Assembly (NCBI GenBank): GCA_913009695.1
Contig: CAJVWV010000008.1
Coordinates: forward strand, 1-42,643
DNA length: 42,643 nucleotides
Reading direction: 5' to 3'
Origin: an uncultured bacterium
Lineage (GTDB): Bacteria; Patescibacteriota; Patescibacteriia; Patescibacteriales; SZUA-104
Program-made: the position numbers and the translations under genes
The notes under the pieces: generated by a model
What the model was told of the DNA's origin: nothing
The model's database searches: none
Seen by the model: only the letters and a program-made list of their open reading frames with translations
Shown: piece after piece, positions 1,437 through 5,939 of the stretch
Position numbering within the stretch: the first letter of the stretch is position 1
Layout of the letters: each line of letters begins with the position of its first letter

Positions 1437-1575
1437 CAAAACCCCGCGCCAGCTAGGTCTTGCGACCACATATCCCTTTCGGAATATGACCCGATGAAGA
1501 GTTGCTAAACGCGGGGTTTAGTATCTTCATCGGGATTTCTGCCATACCTCGCGATAAAACCGCGAGGGTTAGGCG
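1437..1575 (-). ncRNA. Candidate structured RNA with hairpins, GNRA tetraloops and possible pseudoknot
   Basis: CCCGATGAAGA/TCTTCATCGGG stem, CATATTCC-GAAA-GGGATATG, GGTC-GCAA-GACC, CCTCGCG/CGCGAGG, and loop AAACCCCGCG complementary to CGCGGGGTTT. Confidence 0.5.
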
Positions 1576-1651
1576 GATTTTTTTAGTTGTTAATTATAAG
1601 TTAGCATATTGGAAGTTGAAAATCAACTAAAAATAAAACTGGATTAAAAAA

Positions 1652-2971: not shown

Positions 2972-3199
2972 TTAACCGTAGTTTTCTATCAACATTTCCA
3001 CCCGGGGACAATTTGTCCCCCAGTAGGAATTGAGTTCTTTATCCCTTTTTCTCATCTTTTTTATATAATCTCTAACATCTACGGTATTAGTAAGCGCCTC
3101 AACCACATCCGCAACCGAAAACCACCACTCATCGCCATGCCAAACGCGCCGAATTTGTTTATCCTGAAAAATTATTAATTTATTTTGTTTGTTTATCAT
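2972..3199 (-). pseudogene. Truncated BRO-N/antirepressor-like domain protein
   Basis: IIFQDKQIRRVWHGDEWWFSVADVVEALTNTVDVRDYIKKMRKRD resembles BRO-N; stops early at NYG. Confidence 0.55.
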
Positions 3200-3313
3200 A
3201 TTTTTTCAAATTAATTTTAGTTATTTTTTTGTTGTTAATTATAAAATAGCACGCTGAAATTTAAAAATCAATCTCATCAAGCCGATAAATTTATTTTGTG
3301 CTATAATGAACTT

Positions 3314-4312
3314 ATGAAAAAACAAAAATTCAACAAAGGCGAAATAATAATTTATGAGACTTCTGAGAAAGAGGTTGATTTGAAGGTGCGGCTGGAAAAT
3401 GAAACCGTATGGCTGCGGCAGAGTCAAATTGCTCTGCTTTTTGGCACCAAAAGACCTGCTATCACGAAACATCTAAATAATATCTTTAAAAGCGGTGAAT
3501 TGAATAAGGATTCAGTATGTTCCATTTTGGAACATACTGCCGCAGATGGTAAAAAATATAAAACGCAATTCTATAACTTAGATGTAATAATTTCCGTAGG
3601 ATACCGTGTCAATTCCAAACGCGCTACTCAGTTTAGAGTTTGGGCGACTAAAATATTAAAAAATTATCTTTTAAAGGGCTACGCTATTAATGAAAAACAA
3701 ATATTGGAAACAAAAGAAAAATTCCATGAATTACAAACTGTAATTTCCTTTCTACAAGAAAAAGCCGATAAAAAACAGCTCAAGGGGCAAGAAAAAGAAA
3801 TTTTAGGGCTTCTTGCTGGATATTCAAAAACTTTAAGCATTTTAGAACAATATGATAAAGAAAAGCTTAAAAAACCGAAAGGCAAAAAAGCTAGATTTAT
3901 CTTAGAATATAAAAATTGCCTTTCCGTTATTGCCGAGATTAAAAAAGAACTAATCGCGAAAAAAGAAGCCGCTGATATTTTCGGCATGGAACGAGATAAT
4001 GGGCTTGAAAGTATAGTTAAAAATCTTTACCAAACTTTTGGAGGCAAGAATTTATATAAATCATTGGAAGAAAAGGCCGCTCATATTCTATATCTAATTA
4101 TTAAAGATCATCCGTTTTCCGATGGCAATAAACGCATCGGCGCGTTTTTGTTTGTGTATTTTTTAGATAAAAATAATTATCTCTACCGTGAAACCGGCGA
4201 GAAAAAAATAAACGACAACGCCCTGACGGCTCTGGCGCTTTTAATCGCCGAGAGTAATCCGAAAGATAAAGAAATTTTAATTAGAATTGTTATAAATTTA
4301 ATTACGGAATAA
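3314..4312 (+). CDS. RhuM-like domain fused to Fic/Doc domain
   Basis: RhuM-like N-terminus (ETVWLRQSQIALLFGTKRPAITKHLNNIFKSGEL) and Fic/Doc core HPFSDGNKRIGAFLF; ATG at 3314 likely the real start. Confidence 0.85.
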   Translation: MKKQKFNKGEIIIYETSEKEVDLKVRLENETVWLRQSQIALLFGTKRPAITKHLNNIFKSGELNKDSVCSILEHTAADGKKYKTQFYNLDVIISVGYRVNSKRATQFRVWATKILKNYLLKGYAINEKQILETKEKFHELQTVISFLQEKADKKQLKGQEKEILGLLAGYSKTLSILEQYDKEKLKKPKGKKARFILEYKNCLSVIAEIKKELIAKKEAADIFGMERDNGLESIVKNLYQTFGGKNLYKSLEEKAAHILYLIIKDHPFSDGNKRIGAFLFVYFLDKNNYLYRETGEKKINDNALTALALLIAESNPKDKEILIRIVINLITE

Positions 4313-4418: not shown

Positions 4419-5939
4419 ATGTCATCAAAAATATTATCAGCCGCTGTTGTCGGTTTAGACGCGGAAATTGTTGAAGTTGAAGCCGACACAGGTCCCGGAC
4501 AGCTTGGGGCTTTTGCTATTGTCGGACTTCCTGATATGTCCGTATCGGAATCCAAAGAACGGGTAAGGCTCGCCGTAATAAATTCGGGTTTTAAATTTCC
4601 GCAGAGAAAAGTGACAGTAAATCTCGCGCCGGCTGATTTAAAAAAACAGGGTCCGAGCTATGATTTGCCGATTGCGATAAGCATAATGGTTGCGACAAAC
4701 AGAATTCACTCCTTAATTGATCTTGAAAAAATTATGTTTGTCGGCGAGCTGGCTTTAAACGGGTCTTTACGTCCAATAAATGGGATACTGCCGATTGCCA
4801 TTGCCGCTCGGGACAAGGGAATAAAAACTTTATTCGTGCCGACCGAAAACGCGCAGGAAGCAAAGCTGGCTAAAAACATAGAAATTATTCCGGTTAAAAA
4901 TTTATTGGAATTAGTAGAACATTTACATGAAACTCAAAAAATTGAAGCGACAATAGAAAAAGAAATGGATTTTGCCAATGCTCCTGTTTTGGCTGATATG
5001 TCGCATATTAGAGGGCAGGAGCATGTTAAACGAGCCATGGAAATAGCCGCGGCCGGCGCGCATAATATGCTTATGAACGGCCCTCCCGGATCGGGCAAAA
5101 CCTTAATAGCCAGAACATTCGCTTCCATTCTTCCCAATATTACTCTTGAAGAGGCTCTTGAACTTACGAAAATATATTCAGTTGCCGGAGAGCTAGAAAG
5201 CGGAGCATCGCTTATTACAAGCAGGCCGTTTAGGTCTCCGCATCATACCGCCTCGGGCGCCGCTTTAGTTGGCGGAGGAGCATGGCCGCGGCCGGGAGAA
5301 ATTTCACTCGCCCACAGAGGGGTTTTGTTTTTAGACGAATTCGCTGAATTCCCAAGGCAAATTTTAGAAAACCTGCGCCAACCCCTAGAAGACGGAATAA
5401 TTCATATTAGCCGAGCCGCCGGCAGCCTAAAATTTCCGGCTAAATTCGTTTTAATCGCGGCTATGAATCCTTGTCCGTGCGGATACGAAACCGACGAAGA
5501 AAGAAACTGCATCTGCTCTCCTTTTCAGATTATGAATTACAAGAAAAAAATATCCGGTCCGATTATAGATCGGATTGATTTGCATATTGAAGTGCCACGG
5601 ATTAAATTTGAAAAACTAACTTCTGTAGGGGGAGGAGAAGGTTCACAAGCAATTAAAGAAAGAGTGCAAAAAGCCCGCGACATCCAGCATGAAAGATTTA
5701 AAGACTCGCCTTTTATTACTAACTCGGAAATGTCGTCAGAAGCGGTAAAACAATTTTGCGAGCTTGAAGGCGATTCTATCGGCTTGCTTAAAAATGCCGT
5801 TAATCAGATGCATCTGTCGGCAAGAGCTTATTTCAGAATTTTAAAACTGGCGCGTACTATCGCCGATCTAACTGAAGAGAAAAAAATTGCCACATCCCAC
5901 ATTGCCGAAGCCCTGCAATATAGACCGAAGGTTGAATAA
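4419..5939 (+). CDS. YifB/ComM-family Mg chelatase-like AAA ATPase
   Basis: GPPGSGKTLIARTFASILP, SRPFRSPHHTASGAALVGGG, LIAAMNPCPCG. Confidence 0.95.
   Translation: MSSKILSAAVVGLDAEIVEVEADTGPGQLGAFAIVGLPDMSVSESKERVRLAVINSGFKFPQRKVTVNLAPADLKKQGPSYDLPIAISIMVATNRIHSLIDLEKIMFVGELALNGSLRPINGILPIAIAARDKGIKTLFVPTENAQEAKLAKNIEIIPVKNLLELVEHLHETQKIEATIEKEMDFANAPVLADMSHIRGQEHVKRAMEIAAAGAHNMLMNGPPGSGKTLIARTFASILPNITLEEALELTKIYSVAGELESGASLITSRPFRSPHHTASGAALVGGGAWPRPGEISLAHRGVLFLDEFAEFPRQILENLRQPLEDGIIHISRAAGSLKFPAKFVLIAAMNPCPCGYETDEERNCICSPFQIMNYKKKISGPIIDRIDLHIEVPRIKFEKLTSVGGGEGSQAIKERVQKARDIQHERFKDSPFITNSEMSSEAVKQFCELEGDSIGLLKNAVNQMHLSARAYFRILKLARTIADLTEEKKIATSHIAEALQYRPKVE

Follow-up and report, generated by a model that had tools for sequence, protein, structure and literature searches.

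Near one end of a contig from an uncultured member of the Patescibacteriota, the minus strand can be folded into a series of hairpins that an earlier note, made from the letters alone, had read as a pseudoknotted RNA of unassigned family (positions 1437–1575), being either a free-standing RNA or a switch. This raises the question of which RNA is encoded here and whether it acts on its own or on the gene that follows it. We addressed this in the window, i.e. the whole 42,643 nt stretch of contig CAJVWV010000008.1, and in homologous copies of the element.

A LOOT RNA with a long-range helix beyond the Rfam model

The family can be named. The Rfam scan that the earlier note had itself proposed as a check, run with Rfam 15 on the window, returned the LOOT RNA (RF03000) at 1455–1575 (−), covering model positions 1–121 of 121 with 84.9 bits (gathering cut-off 46.4, E 9e-15), and this was the sole non-tRNA match in the window. 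Since the match is full-length and lies above the gathering cut-off, the RNA belongs to a known family, and 'unassigned' was wrong. The original description of LOOT is reportedly that of Weinberg et al. 2017, and Rfam types the family as 'Gene; sRNA'. It has been counted among the families with unusual covariation (PMC7657543), shown as an example family (PMC7779021) and listed with two added covarying pairs (PMC11701678); no function for LOOT was found in the openly readable papers that mention it.

The Rfam model includes P1, P2 with P2a, P3 (GAAA) and P4 (GCAA), and all pairings that had been noted before are in place on the minus-strand sequence. Supported by both model and covariation, P1 (1541–1574) joins GCC (1574–1572) to GGC (1543–1541) and CCTCGCG (1567–1561) to CGCGAGG (1553–1547), the 11 bp P2 (1490–1534) joins CCCGATGAAGA (1534–1524) to TCTTCATCGGG (1500–1490), and the two GNRA hairpins correspond to P3 (CATATTCC-GAAA-GGGATATG, 1469–1488) and P4 (GGTC-GCAA-GACC, 1456–1467). 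P2a is an apical hairpin at 1505–1521 (CTAAAC, 1521–1516, with GTTTAG, 1510–1505). The minus strand had also been chosen correctly, according to the family model and to G-U pairs across homologues.

The model ends at position 1455, one base short of the strand that pairs with the P2 loop, and the loop pairing (AAACCCCGCG, 1519–1510, with CGCGGGGTTT, 1448–1439) is therefore absent from it. The full helix, here called helix T, has 15 bp in the window with a predicted energy of −24.9 kcal/mol, its 5′ side being the loop and the 3′ side of P2a (1504–1519) and its 3′ strand lying beyond the Rfam model (1439–1453). A U-rich tract, UUUUGUG (1435–1441), comes immediately after it, and together with P2 the helix forms a pseudoknot.

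For comparison, 179 LOOT copies were extracted and oriented. When 39 copies were aligned with MAFFT, 99.6 % of the helix T cells were paired, the top value among all helices. A second alignment placed 102 copies on a model built without helix T and was thus not fitted to it; here 97.2 % of the cells of the helix T core were paired vs 79.6 % after shuffling, and sliding the partner by one to three columns left 36–73 % paired. Changes on both sides occurred at all seven pairs of the core, and 111 cells were changed on both sides compared with 31.5 in shuffles, i.e. the long-range pairing covaries. Covariation thus bears out the pseudoknot, the strand and the mutually exclusive pairings that had been read from a single sequence. 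Among 44 representatives with less than 62 % identity, 95 % of cells were paired vs 80 % in shuffles, which do not model phylogeny, and none of 2000 shuffles equalled the real value. Even copies with wholly different loops still form the helix, e.g. L051 (GGAACCAC/GTGGTTCC) and L052 (GGCTACG/CGTAGCC). Across all LOOT helices, 92.2 % of cells were paired and 39 of 41 pairs had changes on both sides, with 98.1 % of cells paired in P2. Judged from these alignments, the compensatory changes, G-U pairs included, indicate selection on RNA pairing.

P2a can form in each of the 159 copies tested and has bases in common with helix T in all of them, so that the two folds exclude each other, as had been proposed for the window. 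Helix T also recruits the 3′ side of P2a and so reaches 13.4 bp on average in these copies; the T duplex has a mean predicted energy of −22.4 kcal/mol, and P2a one of −5.6 kcal/mol. The tract directly after T holds a mean of 5.4 U in 8 nt, commonly as CUUUGUGU or CUUUUUUG.

Some further pairings were considered. No covarying changes were seen by eye for a pairing of the 5′ ACAA with the 3′ UUGU. Downstream of the U tract, a further strand could pair with the 3′ strand of T; this third strand is strong in around 20 % of loci vs 7 % of controls, is good in L008, L011 and L165, and was rejected as a general feature. An attC-like recombination site, suspected from GCCTAAC, was likewise rejected, with no matching second core site and clear covariation at the RNA level.

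Genomic position, distribution and downstream genes

The next gene lies on the strand of LOOT in 163 of 172 loci and is at most 100 nt away in 125 of 129; it usually starts 35–90 nt past the Rfam match, with a median spacer of 33 nt between U tract and ATG. On the upstream side, a divergent neighbour is the commoner arrangement (102 vs 73). Sites resembling a −10 element are enriched before LOOT (67 % vs 37 % shuffled) and show no excess in the spacer between U tract and ATG (25 % vs 32 % shuffled), and TATAAT occurs in only 6 % of the spacers between LOOT and the gene. In addition, ACAA[CT] is found upstream of 143 of the 179 copies, mostly around 10 nt before P1 (control 13 %), and a TANAAT-like element lies 7–12 nt upstream of the conserved ACAAYT motif, suggesting that the two together mark a putative transcript start. 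Because a close gene follows on the same strand and promoter-like sites are enriched only before LOOT, LOOT in general is a 5′ leader. The gene context thus does not support the type 'sRNA' given in Rfam and would fit a leader transcribed with its gene, so that, of the two options first considered for the window, the comparative evidence for a cis-acting leader favours the switch and the family-wide gene context disfavours the free-standing RNA.

In the window, the predicted LOOT promoter is a −10-like TATAAT at 1593–1598 (−), followed by the leader motif ACAACT (1585–1590, −) and a predicted transcript start near 1590 (−). A second −10-like TATAAT lies at 1403–1408 (−) between LOOT and the gene; both sites had been pointed out before and are indeed present. 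Such a second site is unusual among LOOT loci and, together with a 162 nt spacer to the gene, makes the window copy atypical. Regarding independent transcription, the family context would favour a joint leader, though less clearly so for the window copy. The promoter/leader block is repeated in the window (1579–1626 and 3224–3271, 48 nt, 81 %), and the second block precedes a Bro-N ORF (2972–3199, −) without LOOT.

The downstream ORF (114–1292, −) encodes a membrane protein that had no family match in the family scan and no homologue in the other 145 genomes searched. Since Illumina adapter sequence reaches down from around position 152 (72–152, the minus strand reading AGATCGGAAGAGCACACGTCTGAACTCCAGTCAC and then a poly-A run at the contig end), the ORF is truncated and ends in artefactual residues (RSEEHTSELQSH). 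Elsewhere near the element, an IS200-like transposase ORF (2112–2735, −, weak Y1_Tnp match) stands among several GGCAGAATCTCCCGAAAGGGGATTCTGCC palindromes (1649–2813), an arrangement reminiscent of a RAYT accompanied by REP elements, and an ORF with RhuM-family and Fic domains follows at 3296–4312 (+).

LOOT was found in 31 of 146 relatives, in 85 of 384 genomes of the class and in 84 of 384 genomes of the phylum (22 %), with up to seven copies per genome, and in none of 14 control genomes. The genome of the window has a second copy, L007 (C2:40476–40600, −). In named genomes, a strict pattern retrieved 26 stretches, 25 from Patescibacteria lineages and one from a record titled Lentisphaerae; the latter contig carries a strong LOOT (L200, 146 bits with model R1) and is either mis-binned or the result of transfer. 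The strict pattern gave no LOOT matches among IMG/VR viral contigs, and a looser pattern with confirmation by the model gave four contigs with a strong LOOT (L210, L211, L214 and L223). On L210, LOOT lies at 5484–5668; by eye, L210 and L214 have ORFs resembling terminases, and L210 also has ORFs resembling a reverse transcriptase and the repeated variable-protein C-termini of the diversity-generating kind.

With gene starts placed at ATGs at least 22 nt after LOOT, the proteins encoded downstream are mostly membrane-bound or secreted, as scored by a simple hydropathy rule, which is not a signal-peptide predictor: 84 of 140 close downstream proteins have an N-terminal hydrophobic segment vs 8 of 149 proteins of upstream neighbours, and some membrane-like segment is present in 109 of 140 vs 19 of 149. 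Among the 136 downstream proteins scanned for families, we found zinc ribbons (10), SNase-type nucleases (7), HtrA/trypsin-like proteases (5), DUF4352 (5), subtilases (2) and DNA methyltransferases (4 N6_N4, 2 D12). A near-identical signal-peptide start (MKKQFTIFLIL...) occurs in otherwise unlike LOOT genes (L013, L047, L089, L090, L108 and L134), as if leader and signal peptide had moved together.

Copies of P2 at start codons

The 5′ strand of P2 recurs downstream, as an exact match of at least 9 nt, in 33 of 177 loci, compared with 0.14 % in controls, i.e. the downstream regions of other loci. By a duplex criterion, the copy is present in 31 loci from 25 genomes with 28 different P2 strands; it ends 0–3 nt before the ATG in 25 of these 31, for example in L103 (CCTACCAGGGT|ATG), L057 (GCCGTTCAGAGT|ATG) and L075 (ACCAGTCACGGTT|ATG), and shared 9-mers are confined almost wholly to P2. 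As P2 varies from locus to locus and the copy tracks it, the 3′ strand of P2 can pair with either, in the manner of a two-state switch. The two nested folds, P2 and start-site pairing, differ by a median of 2.1 kcal/mol in a model that leaves out the pseudoknot.

The class with the start-site copy is enriched for proteins with [DNS]PP[YFW], taken as an approximate sign of a DNA methyltransferase (8/31 vs 1/114, p 1.5e-5). Among 31 matches from named genome records and viral contigs, some of the former overlapping the first LOOT set, five have a P2 copy and two of these precede type III-like methyltransferase ORFs. In the remaining loci, start-site pairing with other LOOT segments was at chance level (8 vs 5.5 expected). 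Start-site copies showed no significant association with the third strand (Fisher p 0.14), and a division into two platform classes, long U run vs start-site copy, was dropped because no association was found.

The window copy has no start-site copy, and the 5′ strand of its P2 occurs nowhere else in the genome. L007 has one, ahead of a 13-codon ORF, and its P2 5′ strand occurs once more in the genome, at C2:1276, which chance allows; trans targets were therefore rejected for both copies. With helix T, without a start-site copy and with a second −10, the window copy may be partly uncoupled from its gene. In L007, L058 and L142, the ORF behind the start-site copy is very short (13–44 codons) and is followed by terminator-like hairpins and then a larger ORF, i.e. 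a leader-peptide layout or decayed genes.

A proposed leader switch and its relation to known systems

Taken together, we consider LOOT to be probably a cis-acting leader switch of the following gene, working by attenuation. Comparison of homologues carries the family, the helices, the exclusion of P2a and T, the leader position and the start-site copies on which this proposal builds; from these we infer termination or pausing by T, read-through with P2a, a signal, and lower translation upon start-site pairing. In the window, the leader would extend from 1590 to around 1435 (−), with transcription starting near 1590 and P1, P2 with P2a, P3 and P4 folding in this order as they are transcribed. 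Once made, the 3′ strand (1453–1439) would invade P2a and form helix T with the loop and the 3′ side of P2a, and with the U-rich tract following at once, transcription would end or pause before the gene. A stable P2a would instead permit read-through into the gene, and some signal would tip the balance between P2a and T. At about one-sixth of the loci a second exchange may take place, in which the 3′ strand of P2 closes either P2 or the start site, the latter pairing presumably lowering or blocking translation. Counting against attenuation are the frequent interruption of the U tract (UUUGUG) and the T arms, which lie around 55–65 nt apart and are pseudoknotted, unusual for a terminator; the wide diversity of the downstream genes also counts against the leader-switch reading, as do, in the window copy, the missing start-site copy and the long spacer with a −10 inside it.

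The features at both ends of the element could also be those of a free-standing sRNA that is transcribed from a promoter of its own, ends in a pseudoknotted terminator formed at the U tract and acts in trans, in line with the Rfam type 'Gene; sRNA', the promoter-like site upstream, the U-rich tract downstream and, in the window, the second −10 before the gene. However, a start codon follows on the same strand at a near-fixed short distance at most loci, the spacers (median 33 nt) show no excess of second promoters and P2 is copied at the start codon in about one-sixth of the loci, which makes this explanation unlikely. These copies, the nested folds lying within a median of 2.1 kcal/mol and the tract often reading UUUGUG would also suit control of translation only, with helix T and the U tract being structural and not a terminator, but the other four-fifths or so of the loci have no start-site pairing and yet keep T and the U tract, and we regard this explanation as rather less likely still.

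Selection on the RNA also bears on the idea that LOOT is above all a mobile or recombination module at the level of DNA, travelling with accessory genes. Its patchy spread (22 % of genomes, up to seven copies), its presence on viral contigs, the promoter block with and without LOOT in the window and mosaic copies would speak for this; at 1532–1589, the P1 half of the window copy shares 97 % identity with L029 (from G002, same family) and the remainder of LOOT only 45 %, suggesting recombination within LOOT. Nevertheless, the compensatory changes with G-U pairs point to selection for RNA pairing, neither a common boundary nor a cognate enzyme was found, and a place immediately ahead of start codons is that of a regulatory element, so that such a module is highly improbable as the main function.

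Returning to the leader switch, a wider reading, which we put forward with some reservation, is that LOOT represents an orphan class of leader switches in Patescibacteria, with a pseudoknotted terminator-like stem and with membrane, secreted and DNA-modifying proteins as targets, in these ultra-small bacteria and in some of their viruses. A subset, in which DNA methyltransferase genes are enriched, would have a second platform, where the P2 5′ strand copied at the start codon competes for the 3′ strand of P2. The extended structure, the position before start codons, the enrichment of membrane and secreted products and the copies at start codons recast LOOT as a gene-control element that can be tested. 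As Patescibacteria are difficult to cultivate and their regulation is poorly known, the genes behind LOOT leaders provide a first list of possible targets.

Compared with the LOOT family of Rfam, the window copy agrees in all 121 model positions, in P1, P2/P2a, P3, P4 and the GNRA loops and in the bacterial group; it differs by the covarying and universal helix T, the U tract and the position as a cis leader, the model lacking the 3′ strand and being typed as sRNA. With riboswitches and leader attenuators, LOOT shares the 5′ leader, the two exclusive helices and platforms that are terminator-like or pair with the start codon; in contrast to these, it has no known ligand, metabolite gene set or sensing pocket, and its genes encode diverse membrane, secreted and DNA-modifying proteins. 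Intrinsic terminators are resembled by the G+C-rich helix T and the U-rich tract that follows it at once, whereas in LOOT the 3′ strand of P2, P3 and P4 lie between the arms of T, the helix forms a pseudoknot with P2 and the tract often reads UUUGUG.
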